The notes under the pieces are model-generated. The model was not told the DNA's origin and ran no database searches. It saw only the letters and a program-made list of their open reading frames with translations. From positions 124,001-188,000 of the forward strand of contig JAUPFL010000003.1 in the NCBI GenBank assembly GCA_030562215.1: 64,000 bases of DNA, written 5' to 3'. Source of the stretch: Peribacillus frigoritolerans. GTDB lineage: Bacteria; Bacillota; Bacilli; Bacillales; DSM-1321. The position numbers were made by a program, and so were the translations under genes. Below, piece by piece: positions 23,682-46,208 of this stretch. Position 1 is the stretch's first letter, and the number at the start of each line of letters is the position of its first letter.

Positions 23682-24318
23682 TCAATTAGCCCAGAGCGCA
23701 AACAAGCCTTCTGTTACACCCAATTTGTATATATAATACAGTCCGAATGCAAAACTTATAGCTCCCGCCAGTTTGATGAAGATTCGGTTTAAAACGATGT
23801 CCTTTCCATTCAAAGCGAACGGTATGCCTAGTATAGTTGTAAAGCACAGCATGCCAATAATTGTCCCTGCGCCAAATATAATGATATAGATGGATCCTTC
23901 GCCTATACCGGTTACGGTCGACATCGTTAGAATGACCATTGCGGCACTGCCCGCGAGACCATGGACGAAACCAATTAAAGCAGACACCAAAAAAGGCCGA
24001 AATCTATCTTTGTCGCTCGTGATATCAGGGCAAGCTTTAAATAAACTTCTCGCCCCTAGCATAACGAGCATAATACCAACGCCGAATTCCAACGTCATGC
24101 TTAACGAAACTGGAATTTCCCCTTTCATCCAAATGAATAGCATACCTATTAGAAACAGCGTACATGTATGGCCTATTCCCCAATACACCCCGTTAGAGTG
24201 GAACGTGATAATTTTTCGTATTTCCTGCCGTGGTTGCTACTGCAATTACATGATCCGGTTCTAACGAATGCTTTATCCCCAATAGGAATCCTAATGTAAG
24301 AATCGACACCAAACTCAT
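23682..24318 (-). CDS. Nickel importer of the UreH/HupE-like family, two frame breaks
   Basis: Small polytopic membrane protein, about 212 residues. The N-terminal helix carries GIKHSLEPDHVIAVATTAG, resembling the metal-selectivity HxxxxDH motif of NiCoT/UreH-type nickel transporters, and a later helix has GFVHGLAGSAAMVIL. The frame is lost near 24222 (five A for six) and near 24190 (four G for five), which otherwise splits the first two helices. Its ATG overlaps the larC2 stop (ATGA), so it is coupled to the nickel-insertion gene. Nickel supply for the LarC cofactor step is the natural reading. Confidence 0.8.
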
Positions 24319-24789
24319 TTCTCTTCGACCTCCCCGAGACACTTCCAAACTTCTTCATACACCCTTTTAAGAGGTATATTGTTCTGTACGGCAATTTTAC
24401 GGCAATCTTCATATTCAGGTGCCTGCTGTATGGATAAGCCTTCATGGAACCCTCCCTTTATCGTCACTTCCCCCATTGTGTATGTACTTGTAAAAAAGAT
24501 CGTTCAAGCCTGTGCACGGTAAGCGGATAGTAGCGTATCCCGAGAGTCGTCGTTTCAGAAAATAATACCTTCTTAATTTTTTGAAATCAACTGTTGTGAG
24601 CAGAGAAGCTGCAATAACACCCCCGGCCGATTTTTTCATATAGATTGGCGTATAAAATACATCATTTGCTCCTGATTCGAACAACAAATCCATTACATGG
24701 CCAAGCCATTCACCGGAAATATCATCTAGATTCACTTCCATTTTCACCATTTGTTCATCAAGATGCTCATGATCAGGCGGGCGGTTCAT
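24315..24789 (-). CDS. larC2: LarC2, C-terminal part of the nickel-insertion cyclometallase, two frame breaks
   Basis: LarC inserts Ni into the pincer nucleotide in a CTP-dependent reaction. This gene holds the C-terminal half: MEVNLDDISGEWLGHVMDLLFESGANDVFYTPIYMKK, then (after correction) LFSETTTLGIRYYPL and a C-terminal APEYEDCRKIA motif common to LarC. Breaks are near 24562 (one base short after AAGAAGG) and near 24473 (five G for six). The ATG overlaps the larC1 stop (ATGA) and has its own AGGAG site six bases upstream, so it is a separate, coupled cistron. The stop overlaps the start of the nickel importer. Confidence 0.85.
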
Positions 24790-25649
24790 TGAGTCTCTCC
24801 TATGATAACGCGAAGGACGTTCGGATGATTTTCAAATGTTTTTGTGCCGGCACCATAGCCAATCGATTCGACAGTCATGGCTGGAAGCGAGCCGAATGTT
24901 TCAGCTAAAGCCGAAGCTATGGCAGCACCAGTCGGCGTTGCTAATTCAGAACGAATAACGTTAGAGGCAATCGGTACCCCTTTTAATATTTCAAGCGTGG
25001 CAGGAGCAGGAACCGGATATATGCCGTGATCAATATGTATATGTCCAGATCCCGTTGGAATGGCTGATGACTGAACCGATTCAATACCTATCTGATCAAT
25101 TAAAATCGCTGTACCGATTATATCTATTATCGAATCTACCGCTCCTACTTCGTGAAAGTGTACTTTTTCCAGTGGAAGCCCGTGTATACGCCCTTCCGCT
25201 TCACCAATCTTCTTGAAAATGGCGAGTGACATGTTCGTTACCGATTCATTAAAGTTTGCGACTTTGATTGCCTCCACTATTTGTTTGTAAGTACGGCTGT
25301 CATGATGGTGATGAAGCACATGGCTATGGCTGTGTTCATGAGCGTGGCTGTGTTCGTGTCCTTGATTGTGGCTATGGCTGTGTTCATGAACGTGGCTGTG
25401 TTCGTGTTCATGACTGTGGCTGTGATCAAATGGTTGCTCTGATTTACTGGTAAGAATGACATCAAATTTAGTACTCGTAATGCCATTTTTGACGACCTTC
25501 CTCCAAGACAGAGTATATTCTTCATCCATGTTCAGCTTTTTTAACTCTTTTTCCATTTGTAAAGGGTCTGCACCTGCATCGATCAACGCTCCAATTACCA
25601 TATCTCCGCTTATGCCGGAAAAGCAGTCAAAATATAATGTCCTCATCAT
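24786..25649 (-). CDS. larC1: LarC1, N-terminal part of the nickel-insertion cyclometallase, His-rich
   Basis: N-terminal LarC domain: MRTLYFDCFSGISGDMVIGALIDAGAD, VHFHEVGAVDSIIDIIG, SAIPTGSGHIHIDHG and ELATPTGAAIASALAE are all family hallmarks. Inserted at about residues 75-120 is a run made almost only of His, Ser, Glu, Val and Asn with more than 20 histidines (HSHSHEHEHSHVHEHSH...), likely to store or shuttle nickel. About 287 residues, unbroken. Start chosen at the second of three ATG codons, seven bases after AGGAG; the gene overlaps the end of larB by about 25 bases. Confidence 0.92.
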   Translation of the reverse strand: MMRTLYFDCFSGISGDMVIGALIDAGADPLQMEKELKKLNMDEEYTLSWRKVVKNGITSTKFDVILTSKSEQPFDHSHSHEHEHSHVHEHSHSHNQGHEHSHAHEHSHSHVLHHHHDSRTYKQIVEAIKVANFNESVTNMSLAIFKKIGEAEGRIHGLPLEKVHFHEVGAVDSIIDIIGTAILIDQIGIESVQSSAIPTGSGHIHIDHGIYPVPAPATLEILKGVPIASNVIRSELATPTGAAIASALAETFGSLPAMTVESIGYGAGTKTFENHPNVLRVIIGETQ

Positions 25650-26397
25650 CATTGATCTCCTTTTCATGTACAAGTTTGTAAATAAGCGCTGCATTGTATG
25701 CTGCACCAAATCCATTATCGATGTTCACCACACTTACACCTGATGCGCATGAATTGAGCATTGATAAAAGTGCAGATAAACCGTTAAAATTCGCACCGTA
25801 ACCGATACTTGTCGGCACAGCAATAATTGGATTCGTGACAAGCCCTCCTAAAACACTCGGAAGTGCCCCTTCCATCCCCGCGACACAAACTGATACGGTA
25901 GCACTTCTTATCTCGTCTATATTATCAAGGAGGCGATGAAGCCCGGCAACGCCTACATCGTATATACGCCTGACGGGAATACCTAGAGTTTCGGCCGTCA
26001 CGGCTGCTTCTTCAGCAACGGCCAAATCTGATGTCCCGGCGCATACTATTGCAATATATGCCCCGATGGATTTCGGCTTTTCTTTAACCCAAGCAAGTGT
26101 CCGTGCAATCTCGTTATACTCAAAATCACTACATACATTTTGTACAAATACTGCTTTTTCCAGGGAAATGCGAGTCACAAGAACAGAATCATTCCTTATC
26201 CGCAGCGATTGGACAATCGTTAGAATCTGTTCGGCAGTTTTACCTTCTCCAAACACAATTTCGGGAAATCCTTGTCTCCTTTTACGATGATGATCTATTT
26301 TTACAAACCCTAAATTTTCATATGATTCAAGTTTTTTCTTGGCCTCCACTGCTGTCAATGAACCATTTTGAACCTGCTCCAAAATATCGTCAATCAT
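25627..26397 (-). CDS. larB: Pyridinium-3,5-biscarboxylic acid mononucleotide synthase
   Basis: First enzyme of nickel-pincer nucleotide synthesis; it carboxylates and hydrolyses nicotinate adenine dinucleotide. The C-terminal half resembles PurE (AIVCAGTSDLAVAEEAAVTAETLG, RIYDVGVAGLHRLL, VAGMEGALPSVLGGL, VPTSIGYGANFNGLSALLSMLNSCASGV), as is typical for LarB. 256 residues, unbroken. The start overlaps the larE stop (ATGA at 26394-26397), and the 3' end overlaps larC1. Confidence 0.94.
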   Translation of the reverse strand: MIDDILEQVQNGSLTAVEAKKKLESYENLGFVKIDHHRKRRQGFPEIVFGEGKTAEQILTIVQSLRIRNDSVLVTRISLEKAVFVQNVCSDFEYNEIARTLAWVKEKPKSIGAYIAIVCAGTSDLAVAEEAAVTAETLGIPVRRIYDVGVAGLHRLLDNIDEIRSATVSVCVAGMEGALPSVLGGLVTNPIIAVPTSIGYGANFNGLSALLSMLNSCASGVSVVNIDNGFGAAYNAALIYKLVHEKEINDDEDIIF

Positions 26398-27209
26398 GAC
26401 ATTTCTTCCTTTTTAAGAGCTATATTCATACTTCCGCTTATATATCCAGTGAGATCCATTGATACATATTTATAACCAAATTGCTTTAGTCGTTCTGTGA
26501 TCGCCACATGGTATTGAAGCACTCGCGGCATATCAATGGGTTCAACCTCAATTCTGGCAGTATCCTCTTGCGTCCTGACTCTTACTTGGTGAATATCCAA
26601 TGATTTTAAGTAAGACTCTGACTTATCCACTTTCGTCAATTTTTCCTTTGTAATGATATCGCCGTATGCAATACGTGATGACAGGCAAGCAAATGACGGT
26701 TTATTCCAGGTTGGCAATCCGGCTTCCTTGGATAATACTCTTATTTCTTCTTTGAATAAATCGGCTTCTAGAAGTGGTCCCCTGATTCCTTTTTCTTTAG
26801 CTGCTTTCATGCCTGGACGAAATTCGTTAGCATCATCAGCAATAACCCCATAAATAATATTATTGAATTCATATTCTTCAAGAATAGGAAGCAGGTTGTC
26901 AAATAAACTACTTTTACAAAAATAACAGCGATTTTGATCATTTACAGTGTATCCAGGGATGGCTAACTCCGAAGTTTGAATGACATGATGTTTGGCACCA
27001 ATCCATTTTGATAGCATAAGGGCTTCTTTTAACTCACTCGATGGATAGGTTTCCGAATCTGCTGTAATGGCTAACACATTTTCATAACCCAAAGTATCGA
27101 TAGCGACCTTAAGCAAAAACGTGCTGTCCACCCCTCCTGAAAAAGCGACCACAACCGACTCCATTTTTTGGAGAATACCCTGCAGATTTCTGTACTTTTC
27201 TAGTAACAT
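26394..27209 (-). CDS. larE: ATP-dependent sulfur transferase for the pincer cofactor
   Basis: PP-loop ATP pyrophosphatase that converts the pyridinium carboxylates to thiocarboxylates. P-loop SGGVDSTFLLKVA (about residue 25), ADSETYPSSEL, and IRGPLLEADLFKEEIR are typical. Three Cys are notable: CYFC (about residues 110-113) and one in FACLSSRIAYG (about 175). Characterised LarE proteins either sacrifice one Cys or use an iron-sulfur cluster held by three Cys; this pattern suggests the cluster type. About 271 residues, unbroken. Start ATG (MLLEKY) after AAAGGGGAAAAG; a 160-base gap separates it from the upstream aldolase, so it may also have its own promoter. Confidence 0.93.
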   Translation of the reverse strand: MLLEKYRNLQGILQKMESVVVAFSGGVDSTFLLKVAIDTLGYENVLAITADSETYPSSELKEALMLSKWIGAKHHVIQTSELAIPGYTVNDQNRCYFCKSSLFDNLLPILEEYEFNNIIYGVIADDANEFRPGMKAAKEKGIRGPLLEADLFKEEIRVLSKEAGLPTWNKPSFACLSSRIAYGDIITKEKLTKVDKSESYLKSLDIHQVRVRTQEDTARIEVEPIDMPRVLQYHVAITERLKQFGYKYVSMDLTGYISGSMNIALKKEEMS

Positions 27210-27369
27210 AGCACTTTTCCCCTTTCTGGTTTGTCTGAATTTATCCCACTGTCCACAAGCAATAACACCCTTGATGGACCACAAAAAGATTGAAAAGGAG
27301 GAAATATCACAGTCTTACTTTCATTTCCGGCTCTTATTGAACTGGTAATCATATAAGCGACGGACGACT

Positions 27370-27998
27370 TTAGCTTTGTACGATAGCTGAGAATTTTTTT
27401 GCCGTTTCTGCCAGCCTGTCGTAATCTTCACCTGTATTCAATTTCGCGGGATTGATCAATGAACCACCAAGTCCCGCCGCGATGGCCCCTGCCTTAAAAA
27501 AGAAGCGAGGTTGTCAAGGTTGACCCCGCCAGTTGGCATTAGAGGGATGTGAGGAAGCGGCCCTTTAAGATTATTAAAATAGCTAACACCAAGTGCATCT
27601 GCCGGAAAAACTTTGATAATGTCAGCTCCATGCTCATAAGCAGTCAATATTTCGGTTGGTGTGAGTGCCCCAGGGATACTAATAACGCCATAGCGTTTCG
27701 CCATTTTAATCGTTTGGACATTGACGGTTGGAGAAAAGATGAATTCCGCTCCCGCCATGATGACCGCACGGGCCGTTTCAGGATCCAATACTGTTCCGGC
27801 ACCCGCAATTATATCATCACCGAACTCCTCTTTTACTCTATCAATTAAACGGCACACTTTGGGTGTTTCTACTGTAATTTCGAGAGTTCGGATGCCTCCT
27901 TCTTTCAAGGCTCGAGCGATTGGTATAATTTGATCGGGGCGTGCACCGCGAATGACGGCTACCAGCTTCCCATGTTTAAGCTCTTCTAGTTTAGTCAT
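27370..27998 (-). CDS. KDPG/2-keto-3-deoxy-aldonate aldolase, second copy, one frame break
   Basis: Class I aldolase paralogue of the gene at 18336-18956. Motifs are LVAVIRGARPDQ, catalytic Glu in TLEITVETP, GAGTVLDPETARA, Schiff-base Lys in DIIKVFPADALG and LMPTGGVNLDN. The frame breaks near 27497 (one T short in TCTTTTTTAAGG), and correction restores ASFFKAGAIAAGLGGSLI and extends the protein to the TAA at 27370-27372, about 209 residues. Fourteen bases after the sugar kinase gene, with which it forms a phosphorylate-then-cleave pair. Start ATG (MTKLEEL) after AAAGGTGG. Confidence 0.9.
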
Positions 27999-28011
27999 TT
28001 TTTCCACCTTT

Positions 28012-28968
28012 CTACCTCGTTACATCATCTGTGACGCCACTCATGAACAAATTGAGGTCTGCACGGACCGGCAAACCCTCCACATCGCCATTTACCATCG
28101 TAACCATTGCTCCCATGGCATTTCCACGTCTTACGGCTTCATCTAGCGGCAGGCCATCCAGCATGCCTGAAAGTACACCGGATGCAAAAGCATCCCCAGC
28201 ACCGATGGGATCAACGACCCGTTCAACAAAGAATCCAGGAACGTATGTTTTCGGTACAGACGGGGCAGAAATTAAACAGCCTTCTTTGCCCAATTTAAGT
28301 AAGACTGTTTCGACACCGAGTTCATGGAAGTGATCGACAAAATCTTCCGGAGAATGGGAACCGTATAAAAATTCAGCTTCGGTCACCCCAGGCATGACGA
28401 TATCACTTTCCGAGGCGTACTTTGTTATGATGTGACGTGCTTCATTTTCATCACCCCATATTTTCAAACGAATATTCGGATCGAAGACGATTTTTGTTCC
28501 GGTTTCTTTAGCAATGCGGATTGCTTTATCCAAGAGCGACTGACACGAATTCCCCAGTGCAGGGGTAATCCCGGTAATATGGAGATAAGCGGCGTCTTGA
28601 ATGGCAATTTCCGATAGTAATTCTGCTGTCATTTTGCTAGCTGCCGAGTCTTTCCGGTAATAATAAACTCTAGTATCATTCAGCCGTCTGAATTCTTTAA
28701 AAAAAACCCCGGTAGGTGCATCAGGGTCACGAGTTACATATGACACATCAACGCCTTCTCCGCGAATAAACGATTGCATGGCATCTCCAAATTCATCCTC
28801 GCCGAGACGGCTTATCCAGCGTGACCTATGACCGAGTCGGCTTAACCCGATTGCAACATTGGATTCCGCACCGCCAAACTTCATTGAAAACGATCGGGCG
28901 TGGCGAAGTGGGCCTTCTTCATTCGGGGTAAACACTGTCATTGTTTCACCGATGGTTACAACATCCAT
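28012..28968 (-). CDS. PfkB-family 2-keto-3-deoxy sugar-acid kinase, second copy
   Basis: Sugar kinase of 318 residues, unbroken: GETMTVFTPNEEGPLR, KFGGAESNVAIGLSRLG, VFDPNIRLKIWGDE and the catalytic VDPIGAGDAFASGVLSG. It is closest in pattern to KDG kinases and stands directly before a KDPG-type aldolase, so it probably phosphorylates KDG or its 4-epimer KDGal made by the dehydratases in this block. Which epimer cannot be decided from sequence. Start ATG follows AAAGAGGATGAT. Confidence 0.88.
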   Translation of the reverse strand: MDVVTIGETMTVFTPNEEGPLRHARSFSMKFGGAESNVAIGLSRLGHRSRWISRLGEDEFGDAMQSFIRGEGVDVSYVTRDPDAPTGVFFKEFRRLNDTRVYYYRKDSAASKMTAELLSEIAIQDAAYLHITGITPALGNSCQSLLDKAIRIAKETGTKIVFDPNIRLKIWGDENEARHIITKYASESDIVMPGVTEAEFLYGSHSPEDFVDHFHELGVETVLLKLGKEGCLISAPSVPKTYVPGFFVERVVDPIGAGDAFASGVLSGMLDGLPLDEAVRRGNAMGAMVTMVNGDVEGLPVRADLNLFMSGVTDDVTR

Positions 28969-28989
28969 ATCATCATCCTCTTTCTCTTA

Positions 28990-29853
28990 TCATGCTTTTA
29001 CGTAATTAGAAAGCGTGCCGATCTTCTCAATGCTAATGTTTATCCGGTCACCATTTTTCAACCAGATTTTCGGATTCCGCCCCATTCCAACGCCAGGTGG
29101 CGTACCAGTTGCAATCAAATCACCAGGCATTAGTGTCATGGACTGTGATAAAAATGATATGATTTTCGGAACCGTAAAAATTAGGTTGCTTGTATTTGAA
29201 TCCTGCATAATTTCACCGTTTAATTCAAGCTTAATCGCTAGTTTGTGGGGATCGCCCACTTCATCATGTGTAACGATAACAGGACCTAATGGAGCAAATG
29301 TGTCTGCCGTTTTGCCCCTTGACCACTGCCCGTCCTGAAATTGCAAATCTCGCGCACTTATATCATTTATAATTGTATAGCCAAAGACGTATTCAATTGC
29401 CTCATCTTCTGATACATGTTTCGCTTCTCTTCCAATGACAAACGCAAGTTCTGCTTCAAAGTCGACCTCGTTTGAATTAATTGGGATTTCAATCGCATCA
29501 TTATGACCTGCAATCGCATTCGAATATTTTGAAAAAATGACTGGCGAAACAGGCGGTTCCATCCCCGTTTCCTTGCAATGATCAAAATAGTTAAGTCCTA
29601 CGCAAATGATTTTATCCGGCTTTGCGATTGGCGGCAGGATTTTCACTTCTGACGGTTTGAATATAGCATCCTCATTCATCCGTTGCTCGATTAACTGTTC
29701 AGCACGTGTGCGTAACTCGCTGCTTCGTTCTATGAATTTTTTCATGCAAGCAGGAAATTCTTCTGGACCGAGAGCCGTTAAGCTGATAATTTGATCATCT
29801 TGAACAAGACCGATGTGCTGTTCGGTTTGCACGGAAAAAGTTGCTATTTTCAT
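28990..29853 (-). CDS. Fumarylacetoacetate hydrolase-family enzyme
   Basis: FAH-fold metal-dependent hydrolase/hydratase, 287 residues, unbroken. Metal ligands are visible in DFEAELAFVIGRE, and the family segment GYTIINDISARDLQF is followed by GKTADTFAPLGP and GTPPGVGMGRNP. Members cleave or dehydrate 2-keto-3-deoxy or 2,4-diketo acids. Its position after a 2-hydroxyacid dehydrogenase would fit a hydrolase acting on an oxidised 2-keto-3-deoxy acid, as in 2,4-diketo-3-deoxy-fuconate pathways, but this is inference. Confidence 0.85.
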   Translation of the reverse strand: MKIATFSVQTEQHIGLVQDDQIISLTALGPEEFPACMKKFIERSSELRTRAEQLIEQRMNEDAIFKPSEVKILPPIAKPDKIICVGLNYFDHCKETGMEPPVSPVIFSKYSNAIAGHNDAIEIPINSNEVDFEAELAFVIGREAKHVSEDEAIEYVFGYTIINDISARDLQFQDGQWSRGKTADTFAPLGPVIVTHDEVGDPHKLAIKLELNGEIMQDSNTSNLIFTVPKIISFLSQSMTLMPGDLIATGTPPGVGMGRNPKIWLKNGDRINISIEKIGTLSNYVKA

Positions 29854-29872
29854 ATTTTTCCCCTTTCTTAGG

Positions 29873-30826
29873 TTAATGCGTATGGTGTTTTTTCCCTTTT
29901 AAGACCTGAATGATATTTCTTGCTGCTTTTTGACGAAGTTCAACCATCGCTTCCTCAGAATACCAGGCGCTGTGCGGCGTAATGATGACATTGTCCATTG
30001 TGAGTAGCGGGCTATCGATTCGGACCGGCTCATTTTCTGTCACATCAAGTGCTGCACCTGCAATGATCCCTTTTTCAAGTGCATCAGAAAGTGCTTTTTC
30101 ATCGATTATCGGTCCACGTGCCGTGTTAATGATGACCGCATTTCTCTTCATCTGTTTAAGGCGCTCCTCATTGATCAGGTGGTATGTATCATCAATTAAG
30201 GGCACATGGATCGACAAATAATCGGCTTCGCCTATAATTTCGTCGAGATCCATTTTTTGAACCCCTACAGCAGCCATGTCTGCCGCCGATACGAAAGGGT
30301 CATAAGCAGCGGTTTTAAAACCGAGCGGTTTCACCTTTTCAATGAAACGGCGCGGAATCCGGCCAAAGCCTAGAACCCCAACCGTTTGTTCGTTAAAACG
30401 GTGAATCGGGACACACACTTTGAAGTCCCAGTTACCTTTTTTCACTTCCTTATTTAACAGTGTCACTTTCCGCGCCGACGAAAGTAAAAGTGCCAATGCA
30501 TGATTCGATACTTCTTCCATGCCATAATCCGGTACATTGGCGACAGTAATCCCCTTTTCTTTAGCCGCATTGAGATCAATTGTATTGACGCCAACCCCAT
30601 AGCGGGAAATGATTTTGGTGTTTTCAAGCGACTCGATGACTCGCCGTGAAATAGGAGCATATTGATTTAAAATTGCATCCACTTCTTTTGCCTGCTCCGT
30701 TACTTCTTCTTCAGTTTTGCATTGCGCTTTGATGAAATCGATTTCCAGACCGCTTTTTTGAAAAATCTCTTCTTCATATTTCAAATGGTCAAATTCGTAA
30801 TCCGTTAATAATATTTTAAAGGGCAT
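29873..30826 (-). CDS. D-2-hydroxyacid dehydrogenase (CtBP/SerA-like)
   Basis: NAD(P)-dependent D-2-hydroxyacid dehydrogenase fold, 317 residues, unbroken. Nucleotide site VGVLGFGRIPRRF (the last Gly of GxGxxG is replaced by Pro), catalytic Arg in NTARGPIID, Glu in VTENEPV and His in ITPHSAWYSEEA; these fit the C-terminal-binding-protein-like subgroup. It may reduce or oxidise a 2-keto/2-hydroxy acid formed by the neighbouring aldolase (for example tartronate semialdehyde- or hydroxypyruvate-like compounds). Overlapped by no gene; 19 bases before the FAH gene. Confidence 0.87.
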   Translation of the reverse strand: MPFKILLTDYEFDHLKYEEEIFQKSGLEIDFIKAQCKTEEEVTEQAKEVDAILNQYAPISRRVIESLENTKIISRYGVGVNTIDLNAAKEKGITVANVPDYGMEEVSNHALALLLSSARKVTLLNKEVKKGNWDFKVCVPIHRFNEQTVGVLGFGRIPRRFIEKVKPLGFKTAAYDPFVSAADMAAVGVQKMDLDEIIGEADYLSIHVPLIDDTYHLINEERLKQMKRNAVIINTARGPIIDEKALSDALEKGIIAGAALDVTENEPVRIDSPLLTMDNVIITPHSAWYSEEAMVELRQKAARNIIQVLKGKKHHTH

Positions 30827-30860
30827 TTGGGCTCAACTCCTTTCTTGTAATACCAGACAT

Positions 30861-31808
30861 CTATTTCGCTGCTGCCTTTTCAATTTTTGCAATACCGAGT
30901 CCTTCTGCACCGAGTTTCGATGTTCTGGCTTCTGGAAAATATCGTTCGATCATTTGAATACCAATTGCGGCACGACGTACACGTTCTTGAGCGAGTGAGA
31001 TGTTCGTACTTTCCCATTGTTTCCCTGATGGGTATACATCCGGGTGATTACGAAGACCGAATTTGATATATACAGGCGCCAATACACGGATAATTTCCGG
31101 TATTTCATAATAGCGAAGAAAACCGCCGAAGGTATCCGGAACTTCAACGTATAAATCAATTGGAATGTTTATTGATTGCCGGATTGCTGCAAGTTTAGGC
31201 AGCGTTAATGCAGGTGGTACGTTATAGGTATCCGCTCCGATGTCTTCCATTAATTTAACGGATACTGGATTGGATGAACCCATTTGAACCGATACTTTTA
31301 CAACAAAGTCTTCCGGAAGCTGTCCGAATTTTTTCATTTCTTTCGTTAAAAGGAGGAGTCCTTCATCCGCAACCAACGCACCGCGAAGACCAAGTGCAGC
31401 TCCTCTTTTCAAGTCTTCCATGGCATAAACAAGCTGGTCGGATCCTTCATGGCGGATTCCCTGGGATTTTCCTCCTGGCGTAAGCGGTCCTGCGCTGACA
31501 TCCCATGAACCCCTGGGACCGACAAACAAACTGAGCTCCATGCCGCGCTCTGCTGTCATTTCACACATTTCTTTAATCTCTTCATCCGTTTGAAGCATGA
31601 TGCCGCTGCCCTGAGATATTCGGTGAATGGTCAAACCGAGTCGGTCAATTTCTTTCAATGTTTCTTTTAGTGCCGCTGGACCTTCTACACTTGGCAGTTC
31701 AACGCGGTATTGAGCACCGTCCGGAAATGTTTTCGTTGATGTAGGAAGTTCTTTAAGATCAGTTGATGGGTAGCCTAATTTTTCGAGCAAGTCGCGTGAT
31801 TCTTTCAT
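30861..31808 (-). CDS. Conserved protein of unknown function, TIM-barrel/U32-peptidase-like
   Basis: 315 residues, unbroken, no signal peptide. The order of short hydrophobic strands (LTIHRISQGSG, MELSLFVGPRG, RGALVADEGLLLL, FVVKVSVQMG, IGADTYNVPPALTLP, IPIDLYVEVPD, PVYIKFGLRNHPDVYPSG) suggests a TIM barrel. Similar proteins are often labelled U32 peptidase or just peptidase, yet I see no peptidase logic here. It sits between a DHDPS-type aldolase and a 2-hydroxyacid dehydrogenase. Conserved Gly, Asp, Glu and Arg clusters at strand ends suggest an enzyme acting on a sugar-acid intermediate (inference); no function is claimed. Confidence 0.8.
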   Translation of the reverse strand: MKESRDLLEKLGYPSTDLKELPTSTKTFPDGAQYRVELPSVEGPAALKETLKEIDRLGLTIHRISQGSGIMLQTDEEIKEMCEMTAERGMELSLFVGPRGSWDVSAGPLTPGGKSQGIRHEGSDQLVYAMEDLKRGAALGLRGALVADEGLLLLTKEMKKFGQLPEDFVVKVSVQMGSSNPVSVKLMEDIGADTYNVPPALTLPKLAAIRQSINIPIDLYVEVPDTFGGFLRYYEIPEIIRVLAPVYIKFGLRNHPDVYPSGKQWESTNISLAQERVRRAAIGIQMIERYFPEARTSKLGAEGLGIAKIEKAAAK

Positions 31809-32715: not shown

Positions 32716-32732
32716 TATTTCCCCTCCTTTTA

Positions 32733-33878: not shown

Positions 33879-33939
33879 CAAGCACCTCGCATAAATTTTT
33901 TGGAAGAAAGAGAGATTTTGGAAACCTCTCTTACTCTAG

Positions 33940-35408: not shown

Positions 35409-35430
35409 AATCATTAGCTCCTTTTACGTT

Positions 35431-37820: not shown

Positions 37821-38587
37821 TTATATTTTTTGATATTCATAACCGAGCTCCTGCGAAATTTTACTGCTGCATTCCTTTAAGAGACGTACATAATACTCAT
37901 GTGTTTCTTCGTTTACTTTCGAAGCAGGCATCGATACACTCATTGCAGCGATTACCTTTCCTGAATAATCTTTTATCGGTACGGCAAGACAGAAAATGCC
38001 CGGTTCATTTTCTTCATTATCCATTGAATACCCATTAATGCGTACTTTTTCGATTTCTACCAAAAACTGCTCCTTGGATCTAATCGATCTTTCTGTCGGT
38101 CCCGTATAATCATAGCCTTCCAAGAGCAAATCCAGTTCACTATCTGTTTTCGTTGCAACAAGAGATTTGCCAACTGCACTTGTATGAATTGGAACACGCC
38201 GGCCAATACGGGAATACAGGACCGTTACCCCAGTACCTTCCACTTTATCGATATAGACACCTTCCTGCCCGTCCAATATGACAAGGTGCAGCGTTAAATT
38301 CGTTGTTGCTGAAACCCATTCAAGATGTTTTCTGGCTACGTTGCGCAAATCGAGATGGGTCACAACAACGCTTCCCTCTCCAATAACTTTAATCCCAGCG
38401 AGTATTTTCCATTTTCTTCACCTTGTGAAATATAGTGATGCTCCTGTAAGGTTTTTAAAAGTGAATGAACCGTACTTTTATGTAAATTCATTCGTTTACT
38501 TATCTCCGTGATAGTTAGTTCGCGCTCACGCTCATCAAATAAATCCAATATTTTCAAGGCACGCTCCACCGATTGGATGATAGGCAT
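37821..38587 (-). CDS. IclR-family transcriptional regulator, one frame break
   Basis: Winged helix-turn-helix N-terminus (SVERALKILDLFDERERELTITEISKRMNLHKSTVHSLLKTL) and IclR effector domain (KVEGTGVTVLYSRIGRRVPIHTSAVGKSLVA, EENEPGIFCLAVPI). The frame breaks near 38368 (AGGGAAGC for AGGGGAAGC), joining KLLERG to SVVVTHLDL. Corrected length about 255 residues. It lies inside the sugar-acid block, so it likely represses or activates that block in response to a sugar acid or 2-keto-3-deoxy acid. Candidate operators are the palindromes at 46281-46297 and 46407-46423. Confidence 0.9.
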
Positions 38588-38661
38588 CGTTCCTCACTCC
38601 TTTAATTATTCTGTCTACCTTTATATTATCGGATTTTTGACGAGCATTCCTCACTTTATTT

Positions 38662-40849
38662 CTACTTTTTTCCTTGGAGAAAAATATCCTGTTCGTAATC
38701 AAGTACTGCATCCTCAATGACAGCGATTGGAACCACACCATTTGCTGCATCTGTATGTCCTAACATCCTGTTGCTGGCCGCAACCATTTTTTGTCTAGCT
38801 TTCATCCGTTGCTTGCGTTCAGCTGCTAATGATTGTCTTTCTTTTTTAAATGATCAGTAAAATCATGAACAACCTTTCCTGAATGAAGTTGAGTAGCATC
38901 GACTAAATCAATCCGTCGATCACGAAGTTGAAGGTGAATTACATCCCCTGATTTAAGTAAACCAATTCCGCCACCTTCATACGATTCCGGTGTCATATGT
39001 CCTATAGCAGCACCATATGTGACTCCTGAATAGCGGCCGTCGCTTATGATTGTAGCGATTTTTTCATAACACGATTTGCATTGATGTGTTGCATTGGTGT
39101 AAACATTTCCGGCATTCCAAATGCCACTGGCCCCTGTCCTGAGATAATAACCGCAATTTTCAATGTGCCTTCTTCAACCATCCTGTCAAATAACTCCCCA
39201 TAGGTAGCAGTTTTTAGAAGCGACCATTCAGGCTCATTGTTGTATTTAAGAGATTCGAGCAATAGATTATGTCCGAATAGCTTTTGCTCTTTTATCTTTG
39301 AAAGCAGATTAGAATCGAGCAGGCTTTTATTTGCATCATCTTCATTTTCGTAATAAAGGACAAATGCCAGTTTATCATCGAATTGGTCAAGCTGTGGTGT
39401 CGGCATTCCGCTGATTTTTACAACGGCGCTTTCAAAAAGTTTCCTTTTAATACATCAACACCACTGAATCCACGGCGTGGGCTGGATAAAATCACCTGAT
39501 TTTCCTTTACATTAACCGCTTTTAGGCTTTTTGTAATCGAAAGACGTTCTTTCCAAGTTTTTGCGGCGACAGTCGGTGCATCCTGATCCATTGGTACACC
39601 ATTCTCAATGAGTTCATAAAAAGTGTTTCCATTCCCCTGCTTGTCCCGCTGCAACACTGCATTGCAAGTGAATAAATGTCCCTACCTTCTGTCAAACTGT
39701 AATCAAATAAGTCAGGAATTGGATGTAAATGGTGAATGCGGTCAAGGTCCCATAAACTGAATTTGTATCCCGCATAAAGCATGCCTGCGACAATATGCAT
39801 CATTAAGTTAGTAGAACCACCCGAAGCGCTGTGAATGCGGATTGCATTTTTTATGTTCGCAGCGACAATGTTGGCCACGCCGTAGCGCTCTTCGTTTATC
39901 ATGCCGGCAAAACTATCAAGTACAGAGTTAATCTGGCGTTGTGTTGGAGGATCGGTTAACAGCTCAACGGCTGGATGGACGAGACCCATGCCTGCCACTA
40001 AATGACGTGAACTATTCCCCGTACCATTGAAGGCACATACACCTCCCTGCCCGTCACATGTTGCGACTGCAAGTCTCATTTCAAAATATTTATGCTGTTC
40101 CTTCGTCAATATTCCTCGTTCATAGGCCCGTTCAAACACGCCCTGGAATGCAGTATTGGATGAACATTGCAATATATATGCCATCGTATCTCGTAAATCA
40201 ATGGCTACATCGGCTGCGCCTTTACTTTCCGCATTTTTCGCAAGAGTTTCCAATTCTTCAATCACGTCTTCTGGAATCGAACCGCCTTCTAAAACGTGAG
40301 CAGGTGCGAATGTTGCGAAAAATGGTGCTTCACCTCGGTTGCGGCGAACTCGATCAACATGTGCTAGTGCACTTACAACACCAAGAGGCTGCTTATCACA
40401 CCCTTGAATGACAAATGCACCATGATAACTGTGAGCTTCTAGCTGGTTGACAACCATTTGTGCAACTGCGTTTCGGCTCTGGAGAGAGTAACTCATTCCT
40501 TGATTGTTTTGCGCAGTGCCATCACACATTACCGGTGTCGAGAAATGAAACGGCACGCCGCCGTTTTGCCAGATGCGGATTGCTGCCCGTGCCGACGTTT
40601 GGTAATCCATTATATGGGCCGGGTGATCGGACGAGCCACCGATAATTGCGATACGCGGGGCATTCCTTTCTAGCCGCAAATAAATTTCTTCAAGCGTCCA
40701 ATCAGGCTTGCCCCTTCATATGTGGCTCCAAGCGTCAGCTTCGAGCGGTCCAACAGCCCCGCAACCGTAATGGGTTCATTTGCTTTTCCCTGTACATTAT
40801 CGCGGTAAGGGTTTATTTCGTTATCAATGAGGGGATATAGGTGTGTCAT
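38662..40849 (-). CDS. IlvD/Edd-family sugar-acid dehydratase, five frame breaks
   Basis: Iron-sulfur dehydratase. Conserved blocks are FHFSTPVMCDGTAQNN, VIQGCDKQPLG, VATCDGQGGVCAFNGTGNSS, HSASGGSTNLMMHI and, near the C-terminus, ISDGRYSGVTYGAAIGHMTPE (after correction). The Cys residues in these blocks are the usual cluster ligands. One-base losses are near 40704 (C), 39660 (G), 39434 (T), 39059 (A) and 38849 (A). Corrected length is about 730 residues, longer than IlvD and nearer to the long pentonate dehydratases (YjhG/YagF type). A xylonate, arabinonate or gluconate dehydratase role is likely. Start ATG (MTHLYPL) after AAGGAGTGC. Confidence 0.87.
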
Positions 40850-40904
40850 TTCAGCACTCCTTTTCTGGTTTCAAATGAATTCTTCCGTTCTATAAAGATC
40901 AGTT

Positions 40905-42153
40905 TTAGTCCAGTACCAATTCTTCTGGGTCTGACAAGATCTCTATATCTTTAATTTTTAAAGCTTCTTCCATCATGCTTTCAGAAATCCAAATTTCACC
41001 GATTTCAAGAGTGTTTTTAATTCTTACTACTCTCACTTTATTCAAATCGAAGGCATTGCACGTTTTGATGGCAGCTTTTACAGCCAATTCCTGCGTATCC
41101 AAAAACATCGGGAGCTTTACTACATCTGTTACTGTGCTGGTGAGTGCATTTGCATACCCTTTTTCCCATTCTATTTCATTCATGACGGCTTTTGTCGTCA
41201 TATCTGCCATGCCGATGCCGTTTGCATTACCGTGAGTTTTTTCAGTAAGTCCGAGTACAACGGTCCGTTTAACGTCTGGCCCCCGGTAGCATATGGTGTG
41301 GCGAAGTTACCCGTTATATTCGGGTCCATTCCATCCCCCGAAATGTCCTTTCCGAGTTCATTTACAATAAGTACGTCCATCGAATCGAAATGTATTTTCG
41401 GCATCAATGATTTTGCTTCAAGCAATAGTCCCGGCTCCACTTCCCCCAGTTCCTCTGCTGGGACTGCGACGATTTTCGCTGGTTTATCATAAGCATTTTC
41501 AATCGTCGCGAGACCAAATATGATAGGAGCTTTTGACAAGGAAATCTTCGCCATTTCAGGGACATGTTCGGCCATATACTTAAAGCTGTATGCATGTGCA
41601 GCTTCGGCTCCCTTTTGCTTGCCTAAACCGATTGTAATCATTTTCATAAGTCCGCTTTCAACTGGTCCGCGAAATGCCGTATGCGGTTTTATCCGATTAA
41701 TGACTATGATTTTATCGGATTCATATGCAAGCTTATCAATATAGACAGGGAGGCCATTTGGCAATTCATCCAGTTTAATAACTTCCATCGATGACCTGAT
41801 TGGCGCTCCAACCGCCTCTTCTGAAATACCCAGCTGAAGCAACACATCGATTTGCCCTTCCGCCGTGGCACCACCATGGCTTCCCATTGCAGGTACGATG
41901 AAAGGATTGCCGCCAGCCTCCATAACGGCAGCCACCGTTTCTCTTACTAAAGTAGGAAGGTCCGCTACCCCCTGCTGCCTACTGCAATTGCCACCCTGTC
42001 ATTATCTTTTATTCTTGATAAGACACCTGCTTCCTTAATCACTTTCTCCACCTCACCAGCTACATCAGCGATTTGTGGGGTACGAAATTTCTGCCTCACT
42101 TTGACCATTTTCGGTAATTTGATTTCACTTAATAGTTCAGAGATGATATCCAT
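40905..42153 (-). CDS. LarA-family nickel-pincer-dependent isomerase (lactate racemase homologue), two frame breaks
   Basis: About 417 residues after correction. The N-terminal LarA/DUF2088 domain shows VAIAVGSRGVADL, FIVPAMGSHGGATAEGQ, VINRIKPHTAFRGPVESGLMKMITIGLGKQKGAE and VLIVNELGKDISGDGMDPN; the C-terminal part has TEKTHGNANGIG, NALTSTVT and VRVVRIKNTLE. The His residues of GSHGG and KPHT and the Lys of GLMKM are candidates for nickel and cofactor binding. It belongs to a LarA-homologue subgroup distinct from true lactate racemases. Breaks are near 41968 and near 41282 (five G for six in each). Placed between a TRAP binding-protein gene and a sugar-acid dehydratase, it is likely a 2-epimerase of an aldonate or similar hydroxyacid. 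Start ATG after GGAGG. Confidence 0.85.
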
Positions 42154-42177
42154 TTTCGTTCCTCCAGACAGAATGGA

Positions 42178-43222
42178 TTATTTACCGCGTACTTTTTCAA
42201 CTTCGCTCATCATTTCTTTTACTAGATCTTGTCCAAATTTCTGAGCATATTCATCCGTCACTGGTTGGATGGCTTTCTTCATTTTTTCCATTTCTTCCGG
42301 CTCTACTTCATTGATTTTCATTCCTTCTTCTTTTAGATACTTAAGTGCTTTTTCATTTTCTTTTTGGTTAACTTCCCGTTGATACTTTCCAGCCTCCTGT
42401 GCGGCCTCACTCATGATTTTTTGCTCTTGTTCTGAAAGGTCATCCCAGAACTTTTTACTTACAAGGAATACAAATGGTGTATAAACATGATTTGTAAGAC
42501 TTAAGTATTCCTGCACTTCATTATATTTTTGCGTTTGAATCGTTGCGAGTGGGTTCTCCTGACCATCAACAGTGCCTGTTTCCAAAGCAGTGAATACTTC
42601 AGAGAAAGCCATCGGCGATGGATTAACACCCAACTTGGAAAATGCATCTAAATGCACTTCATTTTGCATGGTACGAAGTTTAAGTCCTTTGAAATCCTCA
42701 GCCGTTTTAACAGGGTGTTTGCTGTTGGTTAAGTTTCGGAACCCGTTTTCCCAGTATCCCAAACCTACTAAATCATGTTCCGGTAATTTATCCAAAAGCT
42801 TTTGGCCTACTGCACCATCAAGTACTGTATAAGCTTCCTCTTCATTATTAAAGACAAATGGGAAATCATAAATTCCAAATTCCTTAATCATACCGACAAG
42901 TGGAGAAGTTGAAGGTACTGTTACTTCCTGTAAACCGCCTTGAAGTGCTTCTGTCATTTTCTGATCATCTCCAAGGGTGGCATCAAAAAGTTTTTGACTT
43001 TCATTTTCCCGCCGCTTTTTCTTCAAGGAGTTCTTTAAATTTTTCCATCCCCTGCCCTTGTGGGTGCATTTTACTATTTCCGATTCCTGCTTTAATCGTT
43101 CTTTCCTGTATACCATCAGCTGTGGCGCTTTCATTTTGTCCGCTTCCGCAAGCGCTTAATAGTAGTACTGAAGGCAGTAAAACTCCAACCGCCAAACGTT
43201 TGAACAATTTATTCATTTTCAT
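42178..43222 (-). CDS. TRAP transporter solute-binding protein (DctP family), copy 1, frame-broken
   Basis: Lipoprotein precursor: charged N-terminus KMNKLFKRL, hydrophobic stretch and lipobox LLLSACGSG. Mature part has the DctP signature FTALETGTVDGQENPLATI and FGIYDFPFVFNN. The frame is disturbed near 42990-43005, where GGAAAATGAAAG and ACTTTTTGATG each look one base short; with both restored the text reads AAGKMKVKNFFDATLGDD. About 348 residues. It binds an organic or sugar acid outside the membrane and hands it to DctQM. It stands after DctM and directly before the LarA homologue. Confidence 0.9.
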
Positions 43223-43282
43223 TTTCCTCCTATAAAATAAGATGAATACCAGGATACAGACCCAAATATTTGTTTAATTCCG

Positions 43283-44560
43283 TTAGGAGGTAAACCATTC
43301 TAGAGGAACCAGCACTATGGAAGGAAACAAAATCAACAAGATCAATACAATTACTTCCACAAGCAAGAAAGGCCAAATCCCCTTCATGATTTCTTCCATA
43401 CTGATCTTACTTATGCCGCACATGACATTTAACACGGTTCCGACCGGTGGTGTAAGTAAACCGATGGCATTATTCAGGATAAACAGGACACCAAAGTAAA
43501 CGGGATCAATCCCTGCAGCGACCACCAAAGGCATCAAGACAGGTGTTAGAATAAGGATTGTCGGCGTCATATCCATAGCGGTTCCAACAACGATAACCAA
43601 TAAGTTTATCATTATTAATAGAAGGAATGGATGCTCCATAAATGGCTCCAGTAATCCAATTACCTGACCAGGTAAATCGGCTACAGTTATCAGCCAGGAT
43701 GATACGAGAGCTGCAGCGACCAGAAACATGACAACACTCGTCATTTTTCCTGCATGTACAAAGACCTCATACAAATCTTTCACTTTCATTTCACGATAGA
43801 TTACAAGACCGACAAAAATTGCGTAGACTGCCGCCACCACTGCCGCTTCAGTCGGTGTAAATAAACCGAATTTCAATCCACCAATGATAATGACGGGCAG
43901 GAATAGAGCCCAAATGCCTTGACGAAGTGAAGTAAGTATTTCTTTTGTTGAAGCTCGGGGGTTAACGGCGACTTTATCTTTTCGTGCGACAATGGCCCAG
44001 GTAACCGTAAGTCCAACCGCCAGTAAAATTCCTGGAACGATTCCTGCCATAAAAAGCTTTGTAATGGACACACCACTCGCGACACCAAAAATGATAAAGC
44101 CAATACTTGGCGGAATGATCGGGGCAATGATACCACCTGATGCAATCAATCCACTTGATCGGTTCACATCATAACCGGACTTCACCATCATTGGAATTAA
44201 TATAGCCCCAAGCGCTGCAGTATCGGCAACAGCAGATCCTGATAAACTCGCAAACAGCACACTCGCTATGATCGCAACGTAGCCTAGGCCTCCCTTGATA
44301 TGGCCAACCAAGTTCATTGCCATCTCAACGATACGCCGTGATAATCCGCCCCTATTCATCGCCTCTCCTGCCAGCATAAAGAACGGTATGGCCATTAGAG
44401 GGAAGTTATCGGCGCCACTGATTAGATTTTGTGCGATTATTTGACTATCAAAAATACCAAGGAAATACATTAACACTACGCTACTTACAAGTAAGGCAAA
44501 GGCAATCGGTATTCCAAGTCCCATGGCTCCCAGTAAAGATCCGACAAATACACCTATCAT
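43283..44560 (-). CDS. TRAP transporter large permease subunit (DctM)
   Basis: 425 residues, unbroken, about 12 hydrophobic segments. DctM features: GVFVGSLLGAMGLGIPIAFALL, PFFMLAGEAMNRGGLSRRIV, GYVAIIASVLFASLSGSAVADTAALGAILIPMM, and SGGIIAPIIPPSIGFIIFG. It is the sodium-coupled transport subunit. Start overlaps the DctQ stop (ATGA, 44557-44560). Confidence 0.95.
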   Translation of the reverse strand: MIGVFVGSLLGAMGLGIPIAFALLVSSVVLMYFLGIFDSQIIAQNLISGADNFPLMAIPFFMLAGEAMNRGGLSRRIVEMAMNLVGHIKGGLGYVAIIASVLFASLSGSAVADTAALGAILIPMMVKSGYDVNRSSGLIASGGIIAPIIPPSIGFIIFGVASGVSITKLFMAGIVPGILLAVGLTVTWAIVARKDKVAVNPRASTKEILTSLRQGIWALFLPVIIIGGLKFGLFTPTEAAVVAAVYAIFVGLVIYREMKVKDLYEVFVHAGKMTSVVMFLVAAALVSSWLITVADLPGQVIGLLEPFMEHPFLLLIMINLLVIVVGTAMDMTPTILILTPVLMPLVVAAGIDPVYFGVLFILNNAIGLLTPPVGTVLNVMCGISKISMEEIMKGIWPFLLVEVIVLILLILFPSIVLVPLEWFTS

Positions 44561-45129
44561 CCCTGTTTCTCCTCCTTACCGATCCTAATATCTGAAGCGA
44601 ATTCATCAGCATGGAGAGAAATTAGCTCTTCTGACTCACTTATCATCACCAATTCATCGTCTTTAATTTTATTGAAGAAAACCCGATACAAATTGAAAAT
44701 GATCATGCTGCCCATTGAAACACTCACAAGAATACCTGTCCCATATACAAATGCCAGTGGCATGCCAGTGGCCGGTGCAGTACTATCAATGTTTATCAAT
44801 GTCATTTTCCAGCTGCCATCCAAGATCAGAATAAGAACGAATAACATCATCAAATCACTAATAACAAGAACCACTTTTTTCATCTTATTCGGGAGCCGTT
44901 TGATGACCATATCGACACCTAAGTGTTCTTTGTTTTTGAAAGCTCCGATGGCGCCAAGGAACGTCAACCAAATAAAGAGATACCTTGACATTTCTTCTGA
45001 CCAAGTAATTCCTGAATTAAAGTAATAACGAAGAACTACATTACCAAACACGAGTACGACCATTATTGCTAAAGCAACTGCCATAATAATGTTCAACGAA
45101 TTCTCCATGATTCTGGATATTTTATTCAC
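44557..45129 (-). CDS. TRAP transporter small permease subunit (DctQ)
   Basis: 190 residues with four hydrophobic segments; the DctQ hallmark RYYFNSGITWSEEMSRYLFIWLTFLGAIGAFKNKEHLG is clear. It pairs with the DctM encoded next with a 4-base overlap. The C-terminal tail is unusually long and acidic (DDELVMISESEELISLHADEFASD). Unbroken. Confidence 0.94.
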   Translation of the reverse strand: MNKISRIMENSLNIIMAVALAIMVVLVFGNVVLRYYFNSGITWSEEMSRYLFIWLTFLGAIGAFKNKEHLGVDMVIKRLPNKMKKVVLVISDLMMLFVLILILDGSWKMTLINIDSTAPATGMPLAFVYGTGILVSVSMGSMIIFNLYRVFFNKIKDDELVMISESEELISLHADEFASDIRIGKEEKQG

Positions 45130-45164
45130 CTATACATCTCCCCTTCCTATCTAGAGCGCCTTCT

Positions 45165-46208
45165 TCATTCTGCTTTTATTTTTCCGACCAGCTCCTCCGC
45201 CCAGTCATTTTTCTCAAAGACTTCATCATAAACAGGTTGAGATGCTTTTAACATTTTTTGTGAAAAGTCTTCGTCAGGCTTAGTGAATTTGATTCCATTA
45301 TCCATTAGATATGCTTTGTCATCTTCATAACTTTTTTCCATCAAATCAAACTCATATGCTGCCGACTCCTTTGCTGCTTTTTGAATGATTTTTTGTTGCT
45401 CCTTTGTTAGCCCTTTGTAGAATTTGCTATTGATAATGTAAATATTGGGGCTGAACATATGCTTGGATTCCAGTACATCACTTTGAACTTCATTCCACCC
45501 CGAGGATCTCAGCGTGGCAATGGGATTGTCCTGGGCATCAACAACCTTTTGTTCAAGTGCGGTAAAAACTTCTGAAATAGGCAATGGGCTAACGTTTGCC
45601 CCCAATGATTCACCTAATTTTATGTAATTCGGGATGTTCGGCATTCTGAGTCGAAGTCCGTCAAAATCTTTCATACTCTTAATTTGGCGATTACTCGAAA
45701 ACATCCTAAATCCGTTTGCACTCCATGCAAGCGGTGTCACTCCATGCTTTGGATCAAGCTCTTCTGTCAATTCCTCTCCGATAGGTCCATTCAATACCTT
45801 CTTTACATGATCGTAATCCCTAAATAGGAAGGGCCATTCCGGAACACCCATTTTAGGAATGTCCGACTGCATAATAAGCCCAGGGACACCCATTTCGATT
45901 GTTCCGTTTCTGACGCCGTCATAAAATTCTTTTTCTGCACCTAATGTACTGTTCGCATAAATCCGAACCTCTAGTTCACCATTACTCTCCTTTTCAACCA
46001 CTTTTTTGAATTTTTCTTTCAAAGCAATGTTTTGAGGATGATTTTCAGCAAAATAATGTGCCACTTTAATAGTTTTCTTTTCTACTCCAGATCCACTGGT
46101 TTTTTCTCCTTCACTTCCACTACATCCTGATAAAAGGAATGCCATTGCAAGAGTTAAGCTTGTGGAAAATACAAAAAGCTTTCTTTTTTCAATAAAAACC
46201 CTCCCCAT
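45165..46208 (-). CDS. TRAP transporter solute-binding protein (DctP family), copy 2
   Basis: Lipoprotein with lipobox FLLSGCSGS after a hydrophobic stretch; the mature part has FTALEQKVVDAQDNPIATLRS and MGVPEWPFLFRDYD. About 347 residues as read from the ATG at 46208. That start has no ribosome site; a strong GGGAGGG followed six bases later by TTG AAA AAA lies inside it, but is in frame only if the six-A run there is really seven, so the true start may be near 46190 (MKKRKLFVF). First gene of the TRAP operon, with a cre site and two palindromic candidate operators upstream. Confidence 0.92.
   Translation of the reverse strand: MGRVFIEKRKLFVFSTSLTLAMAFLLSGCSGSEGEKTSGSGVEKKTIKVAHYFAENHPQNIALKEKFKKVVEKESNGELEVRIYANSTLGAEKEFYDGVRNGTIEMGVPGLIMQSDIPKMGVPEWPFLFRDYDHVKKVLNGPIGEELTEELDPKHGVTPLAWSANGFRMFSSNRQIKSMKDFDGLRLRMPNIPNYIKLGESLGANVSPLPISEVFTALEQKVVDAQDNPIATLRSSGWNEVQSDVLESKHMFSPNIYIINSKFYKGLTKEQQKIIQKAAKESAAYEFDLMEKSYEDDKAYLMDNGIKFTKPDEDFSQKMLKASQPVYDEVFEKNDWAEELVGKIKAE

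Follow-up and report, generated by a model that had tools for sequence, protein, structure and literature searches.

The window, a stretch of 64,000 nucleotides from Peribacillus frigoritolerans (contig JAUPFL010000003.1, positions 124,001 to 188,000), carries on its minus strand a co-directional series of 23 genes running from 46208 to 23682, in which a homologue of the lactate racemase LarA lies together with transporter, sugar-acid and cofactor genes. The initial annotation had described one 22.5-kb block that holds, on one strand, the LarA homologue and larE-larB-larC1-larC2 with a TRAP transporter, three dehydratases, a KDG kinase and aldolases, and open reading frames (ORFs) and family scans confirmed this arrangement. 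The LarA homologue is proposed here to be an aldonate 2-epimerase that depends on the nickel-pincer nucleotide (NPN). The genes are listed in gene order, preceded by a promoter match; L005 is a relative, assigned to P. frigoritolerans, with intact orthologues.

46453..46482, minus: sigma-70-type promoter match (12/12) upstream of the first gene; a consensus match only
45165..46208, minus: DctP_a, TRAP solute-binding protein, first gene (ORF; 95% to L005; nearest solved chain 4pbq, E 3.7e-76)
44557..45129, minus: DctQ, TRAP small membrane subunit (ORF; 96% to L005)
43283..44560, minus: DctM, TRAP large membrane subunit (ORF; 99% to L005)
42178..43261, minus: DctP_b, second TRAP solute-binding protein, two frames (intact L005 copy nearest 7bbr, E 9.8e-100)
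40905..42153, minus: LarA homologue of group 22 (NF052515), proposed aldonate 2-epimerase, three frames (family, fold, residues)
38660..40849, minus: IlvD734, divergent 734-amino-acid (aa) IlvD/Edd-type dehydratase, several frames (family scans, relatives)
37821..38587, minus: IclR-family regulator, two frames (best NCBIfam match KdgR, below its cut-off)
36902..37789, minus: FAH-superfamily enzyme, probable 2-keto-3-deoxypentonate dehydratase (L005 copy nearest 2q18)
36591..36890, minus: SAF-domain small subunit of a UxaA/GarD-type dehydratase (family scan, relatives)
35431..36610, minus: large subunit of the UxaA/GarD-type dehydratase, three frames (family scans, relatives)
33940..35414, minus: alpha-ketoglutaric semialdehyde (KGSA) dehydrogenase, two frames (L005 copy NF042993 852 bits, cut-off 770)
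32733..33887, minus: DgoD-type galactonate dehydratase of the enolase superfamily, several frames (L005 copy NF010624 666 bits, cut-off 311)
31831..32739, minus: DHDPS-family aldolase/dehydratase (family scan)
30861..31808, minus: Peptidase_U32-like protein, 315 aa, conserved (weak PF01136 match; present in 25/80 loci)
29873..30826, minus: D-isomer-specific 2-hydroxyacid dehydrogenase (family scan)
28990..29853, minus: second FAH-family hydrolase (family scan)
28012..28968, minus: KDG kinase-like sugar kinase (named by eye and by similarity to relatives)
27456..28007, minus: KDPG aldolase-like protein, probably shortened by a frameshift (named by eye and by similarity to relatives)
26394..27209, minus: larE, sulfur transferase of NPN synthesis (TIGR00268 344.8 bits, cut-off 150)
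25627..26397, minus: larB, carboxylase of NPN synthesis (NF033503 302.2 bits, cut-off 175)
24786..25646, minus: larC1, nickel insertion (TIGR00299 215.3 bits, cut-off 90)
24333..24789, minus: larC2, nickel insertion, more than one frame (NF052512 56.5 bits for a piece, cut-off 50)
23682..24321, minus: NicO-like short membrane protein, putative nickel importer, two frames (weak Pfam match, in relatives only)

Neighbouring genes of the block overlap or are separated by less than about 70 bases, the exception being about 250 bases, by the frames seen, ahead of larE. Over 26600-46500, neither promoter-like matches (29, shuffle mean 42.3) nor terminator-like matches (17, shuffle mean 18.9) were in excess. 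The same gene set was found together again in relatives of the window block, and its grouping is therefore not due to chance. Nine of the 23 genes occupy more than one frame, namely those for the LarA-type protein, IlvD, IclR, the UxaA large subunit, KGSA dehydrogenase, DgoD, the second DctP, LarC2 and the NicO-like protein. Because the orthologues of all nine are intact in relatives, frame breaks also occur in UxuA and Ldh2 beside the block, and the source genome (5.38 Mb, 3 contigs) is 87% complete, assembly error is the likeliest cause of the breaks. The split genes were left unrepaired, and intact orthologues, such as those of L005, were used in their place.

The LarA-family gene starts with an ATG at 42153 and ends at 40905, its pieces lying at 42171-41968, 41974-41279 and 41324-40908; among named genomes, the larger fragment is closest to Bacillus sp. 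SD075 and Peribacillus simplex (97% in each case). The two larger pieces match NF052515, the NCBIfam model “NPN isomerase group 22”, which is without a named substrate, with E values of 3.5e-103 and 2.3e-25 (345.6 and 89.3 bits, each below the cut-off of 400), and the intact orthologue in L005 scores 555.1 bits and is thus a full group-22 member. Superfamily features, a Lar_N domain and the LarA fold, are present. Residue positions were assigned with phmmer and by aligning profiles with those of canonical LarAs; a search of PDB sequences with the group-22 profile matched no LarA entry. Counterparts of the catalytic H108 and H174 of LarA, of K184, which tethers the NPN, and of the nickel ligand H200 are found in the window pieces, and the aligned residues are invariant in 144 of 144 relatives, so that the NPN-binding Lys and His on which the initial annotation had laid weight are in place. 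R67 is a candidate counterpart of LarA R75, at a gapped point of the alignment. The Phe-Phe after H174 of true lactate racemase (group 1) is replaced in group 22 by T165-A166 after H164, and the group-22 protein gave no match at E 0.001 to LarA_C (PF21113), which canonical LarA does match. The residue after the second catalytic His is Thr in 142 of 144 relatives, not the Glu of GntE-type enzymes (groups 18-20), whose E, V, A, H rule includes a Glu directly after that His in the available text of PMC11770544.

When the genome was searched with PF09861, only this gene matched and no other LarA homologue was found, so that no lactate racemase of the kind that would have contradicted the initial annotation turned up. 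Co-occurrence was examined in an order sample of 299 genomes. Group 22 is present in 46 of these (45 over the cut-off and the frameshifted window copy), and LarC1 in 55, with LarE over its cut-off in the same 55. Both larC and larE accompany group 22 in 44 of the 46 genomes (Fisher p 1e-39, with genomes taken as independent of kinship), and larC lies within 25 kb of the group-22 gene in 32 of the 46. NPN binding and dependence of group 22 are predicted from this co-occurrence. Among the 44 genomes, 30 yielded no LarA homologue outside group 22 (canonical LarA), some of the 30 having multiple group-22 copies. Intact group 22 is missing from 11 genomes with larC; canonical LarA is present in 10 of these, and a group-22 fragment in the remaining one. 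Since the gene is the sole LarA homologue found in its own genome and 30 of the 44 order genomes are alike in this, larE, larB, larC1 and larC2 of the block most likely serve the group-22 enzyme, as had been supposed. On the other hand, the nickel importer of the initial annotation was upheld only in part: a NicO-like gene is present, but its identity as NicO is borderline, as the window piece gave no Pfam match and, of two relatives scanned, L103 scored 27.7 bits, equal to the NicO cut-off of 27.7, and L061 20.5, below it. The protein is perhaps a nickel importer. The larC1 and larC2 genes occupy separate frames in the window (24333-25646), likewise in L081 and L140; Geobacillus L061 has one fused LarC. 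A programmed frameshift has reportedly been described for larC of L. plantarum, and by analogy the split in the window is possibly of this kind.

The surroundings of group 22 were surveyed in the best 80 of 540 relatives in named genomes, a set biased to close ones, with counts made within the fetched flank. TRAP genes and IlvD734 occur together in 56 of the 80 loci, accompanied by the FAH enzyme in 53, KGSA dehydrogenase in 41, the UxaA large subunit in 37 and DgoD in 32. The operon of the Geobacillus type is reduced to TRAP, the LarA homologue, IlvD734, IclR, FAH, KGSA dehydrogenase, LarE, LarB and LarC; a NicO-like gene is found in three of the six such loci displayed (L056, L059, L061), and L048 carries in addition KDG kinase, KDPG aldolase and a second TRAP set upstream. 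The FAH enzyme (L005 copy) is nearest to 2q18, a 2-keto-3-deoxy-D-arabinonate dehydratase (E 5.2e-68; next match E 3e-18), and the operon holds, by similarity, both members of the Weimberg-type pair, 2-keto-3-deoxypentonate dehydratase and KGSA dehydrogenase. In the Weimberg route, these two enzymes lead to 2-oxoglutarate, and the two families therefore point to 2-oxoglutarate as the end of the pathway and a pentonate as its likely start. D-pentonates all yield the same 2-keto-3-deoxy acid, so that, on chemical grounds, a C2-epimerase ahead of a stereospecific dehydratase would widen the range of substrates. IlvD734 exceeds in length the IlvD-family models to which it matches (543-640 positions) and is classed by sequence as an uncharacterised IlvD subfamily; it occurs in 18 of the 299 order genomes, with group 22 in 16 of the 18 and within 7 kb in 15. 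The initial annotation had offered IlvD/Edd or a DgoD-type enzyme as the dehydratase partner; IlvD734 proved the steady one, and DgoD was seen in 32 of the 56 loci.

Taken together, the gene at 40905-42153 is read as an NPN-dependent aldonate 2-epimerase of LarA group 22, with a probability of roughly 0.7; family, fold, residues, co-occurrence and operon conservation were computed, and the reaction, substrate, direction and channelling are inferred from them. The TRAP importer would take up a sugar acid, and the group-22 enzyme would oxidize its C2, passing a hydride to the nickel-pincer cofactor that the larE, larB, larC1 and larC2 products are predicted to make. Return of the hydride on either face could then equilibrate the two C2 epimers. 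IlvD734 may accept one epimer and remove the C2/C3 stereochemistry to give the 2-keto-3-deoxy acid, which the FAH-family dehydratase and KGSA dehydrogenase would convert to 2-oxoglutarate. The epimerase would thus be a funnel, allowing one stereospecific dehydratase to serve both C2 epimers. The most likely substrate is a D-pentonate pair (D-lyxonate/D-xylonate or D-arabinonate/D-ribonate), an assignment held at somewhat less than even odds, and, given the additional DgoD, KDG kinase and KDPG aldolase of the window, hexonates (galactonate/talonate, for instance) may be substrates as well.

KGSA is formed from aldarates too, and the block includes a UxaA/GarD-type dehydratase and a DHDPS gene, which an aldarate 2-epimerase or racemase (acting on glucarate, galactarate or arabinarate) could feed. 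UxaA also adjoins the LarA homologue in other lineages, and a hydroxyglutarate-racemase LarA homologue is weakly active on arabinarates in the available text of PMC11770544. This alternative is nevertheless unlikely: the part of the minimal L061 operon that was seen has neither UxaA nor DHDPS, the UxaA large subunit reaches 248.9 bits against the galactarate dehydratase cut-off of 730.85, and two sister operon types, described below, lie in aldonate pathways. In addition, DctP_b is nearest to 7bbr, which we take to be the sugar-acid binder CxaP, for which the part of the source available reports aldonate binding. The frequencies of the FAH dehydratase (53/56) and KGSA dehydrogenase (41/56) as compared with DgoD (32/56) likewise favour an aldonate (pentonate) epimerase, so that of the aldonate/aldarate 2-epimerase or racemase first suggested, the aldonate part appears the better founded and the aldarate racemase is disfavoured. 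Sulfolactate sulfo-lyase, too, has the form of a two-subunit UxaA; this identity was set aside, the remaining neighbours being sugar-acid enzymes. D-mannonate is less likely as the window substrate, since a UxuA gene, split into two pieces (17248-18326), is present outside the block in the window. That gene belongs to a second, partly frameshifted sugar-acid set beside the block (17248-21990), comprising the mannonate dehydratase UxuA, a KDPG aldolase-like protein, a zinc alcohol dehydrogenase, an Ldh2-type dehydrogenase and a KDG kinase-like protein, and a second UxaA-type dehydratase (11202-12382) and another KGSA dehydrogenase-like aldehyde dehydrogenase (6263-7182) lie elsewhere in the window, each in two frames. 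In 12 of the 80 surveyed loci, a gene of 445-462 aa directly follows the LarA homologue (L043:11035-12381, for example, and L020, L025, L028, L033, L040, L041, L049, L052, L071, L072 and L074). Its 448-aa product, scanned in L028, matched no Pfam or NCBIfam family at E 0.001 and had no tblastn match in the window; by eye it is possibly a multi-pass membrane protein and a candidate sugar-acid permease.

All 58 group-22 places over the cut-off in the order sample were sorted by their neighbours within 9 kb: type A by IlvD734; type B by a mannonate-oxidoreductase-type SDR with UxaC, a gluconokinase-type kinase or Gnd (or by UxaC alone); and type C by a DtnK-type kinase or PdxA2. Fourteen genes fell into type A, the window type, 17 into B, 16 into C and 11 into none, so that 47 of 58 lie in one of three sugar-acid operons, in line with the association expected at the outset. 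By neighbour families, type A would lead from pentonate to 2-oxoglutarate, type B would link glucuronate, mannonate and gluconate, and type C would be of a threonate/erythronate type. Within the flank, type B has the SDR in 17 of 17 loci, the kinase in 16, LarE and LarB in 14, Gnd in 7 and UxaC in 6, and on a Paenibacillus plasmid the annotated order is UxaC-LarAH-SDR-LarE-LarB-LarC1-LarC2, where LarAH is the LarA homologue. UxaC is present in all 17 type-B genomes and UxuA is missing in 8 (an enolase-type mannonate dehydratase was not sought), which suggests that in those 8 mannonate may leave only via epimerization to gluconate, as has been proposed for GntE of T. maritima in the available passages of PMC7583248 and PMC6978723. 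Type C combines a DtnK-type (DUF1537) kinase (16/16), a PrpR-type regulator (16), a PdxA2-type protein (15) and TRAP DctM (13). The kinase and PdxA are placed in families and not assigned substrates, the D-threonate-4-phosphate dehydrogenase model giving 348.5 bits, below its cut-off of 583; the pair presumably has a role in threonate/erythronate use, and type-C group-22 proteins are candidate erythronate/threonate 2-epimerases. Most of the 16 type-C loci (L084, L085, L090, L094, L096, L098-L100, L102, L103, L105-L107, L110, L119 and L133) have TRAP and lar genes.

In a tree of 95 proteins (29 rows unlabelled, built by a quick method and with some long branches meeting), types A and B are separate and each fully supported, type C forms a grade near the root, and operon type requires 3 changes, the minimum possible, against a shuffle mean of 32.6. 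Types A and B are identical at positions 166, 287, 293, 294 and 297, at which type C differs (A to D, T to I, P to L, Y to G and G to E). The type-C pocket may therefore differ from that of A and B, with the window clade nearer the mannonate type, and the likeness of A and B hints weakly at a gluconate-like configuration, that is, D-xylonate/D-lyxonate in the window type. We infer that each of the three operon types needs, or profits from, aldonate C2-epimerization. The broader proposal that group 22 comprises general nickel-dependent aldonate C2-epimerases, for C4 erythronate/threonate, C5 xylonate/lyxonate or arabinonate/ribonate and C6 mannonate/gluconate, stands at about even odds.

Of 398 genomes sampled across the phylum, 81 have group 22 over the cut-off, and the group was also seen in Roseobacteraceae and Haloarcula. 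In the best 30 phylum loci (flanks of about 1.5 kb), a sugar-acid enzyme adjoins in 19, and such an enzyme or a TRAP/TTT gene in 22. Plasmid records matching group 22 number 113, 47 of them from Pseudosulfitobacter. In Loktanella and Sulfitobacter, the LarA homologue comes after a UxaA-type dehydratase, and the clusters also contain lar genes and a gene of the IlvD family; in Sporomusa, it lies ahead of UxaA, and Sporomusa termitida has its group-22 gene on a plasmid. The haloarchaeal (n=3) and Rubrobacter neighbourhoods are mixed, with no single context. Published LarA-type substrates include malate, hydroxyglutarate, gluconate/mannonate and hydrophobic hydroxyacids in the available text of PMC7583248 and PMC11770544. 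The open PMC papers searched, supplements apart, gave no function for group 22 and no LarA-type pentonate or tetronate epimerase, and LarAH22 is absent from the 2020 test list in the accessible part of PMC7583248; some group-22 neighbours may already be in Table S1 of that paper.

Several points weigh against the reading as an aldonate 2-epimerase. D72 and K298 of LarA are without a clear counterpart in group 22, no conserved acid or Lys being found at the aligned places, and the 2020 paper (PMC7583248, in the passages available) states that homologues without catalytic residues may do other hydride chemistry and that genomic context is not always predictive of activity. The NPN could then be used for a one-way conversion or an oxidation/reduction instead of stereoinversion, an alternative of slight probability, since both catalytic His are invariant and type-B operons miss only the mannonate-to-gluconate step (free or phosphorylated) to link their enzymes. 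No activity is known for any protein identifiable as group 22. One haloarchaeal member adjoins an L-lactate permease, promiscuous LarA homologues are known, and LarAH66, from Sporomusa termitida, is a weak short-chain racemase whose true substrate was perhaps not found, according to its authors (PMC11770544, in its available text). It is possible that LarAH66 is the plasmid group-22 protein, and thus an exception to the gap in function; the main text of that paper, as available, gives no gene identity. A racemase of hydrophobic or short-chain 2-hydroxyacids (lactate, 2-hydroxybutyrate) in an incidental sugar-acid setting is nevertheless very improbable, as the operon is kept across many genera and the three aldonate-type operons track the tree. 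Two genomes, G143 (L111) and G211 (L098), have intact group 22 and neither LarC nor LarE over the cut-off. In the available text of PMC11796402, larB, larC and larE occur without larA in about 15% of genomes, so that lar genes alone are no proof of a LarA partner. IlvD734 exceeds no NCBIfam cut-off, and the pentonate assignment, including the predicted action of IlvD734 on pentonate, rests on the families of the neighbours. G051 and G233 have IlvD734 without group 22; as the two are mostly but not always together, the epimerase fits an accessory funnel, not an obligate step. Eleven of the 58 genes in the order sample fall outside all three operons, as do 11 of the 78 group-22 genes from the named loci, and UxuA is also present in 9 of the 17 type-B genomes. 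In Lactobacillus suebicus, mannonate reaches 6-phosphogluconate by a kinase followed by a 6-phosphomannonate 2-epimerase whose gene is unknown (PMC6978723, available passages), and by analogy the type-B homologue might act on this phosphate ester.

For a widespread group whose family model carries no substrate, the operon evidence thus yields three concrete proposed reactions and pinpoints short cassettes in which the cofactor genes are included. If the aldonate 2-epimerase reading is true, the ordinary breakdown of pentonates, uronates and tetronates would involve nickel as a cofactor in many Bacillus-like bacteria, and a 2-epimerase would explain how one stereospecific dehydratase serves two sugar acids. 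If the general aldonate proposal holds, much of the NPN in such genomes would serve sugar-acid catabolism, not lactate, and 2-epimerases of C4 and C5 aldonates would count as new activities as far as the open PMC papers searched extend.

With LarA of L. plantarum (5HUQ/6C1W), group 22 has in common the fold, the two catalytic His, the NPN-tethering Lys, the nickel-ligand His and the co-occurrence with LarB, LarC and LarE. In contrast, the window protein shows 14 percent identity to it in a structural alignment and sits in a sugar-acid operon, and group 22 differs at the D72/K298 places and in lacking the LarA_C match. Unlike the single-His LarA subfamily with solved structures (PMC12611868, in its available text), group 22 retains both His. 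GntE of T. maritima (4NAR), a D-gluconate/D-mannonate 2-epimerase, represents the same proposed reaction class, and its logic is similar to that of the type-B operon. The NF052515 model names no substrate, whereas one is proposed here. Finally, the window operon shares with Weimberg-type pathways an IlvD-family enzyme at the start and, by family, the two enzymes at the end; unlike these pathways, the window route would start from an imported acid and employ a divergent 734-aa IlvD together with a nickel epimerase and its cofactor genes.

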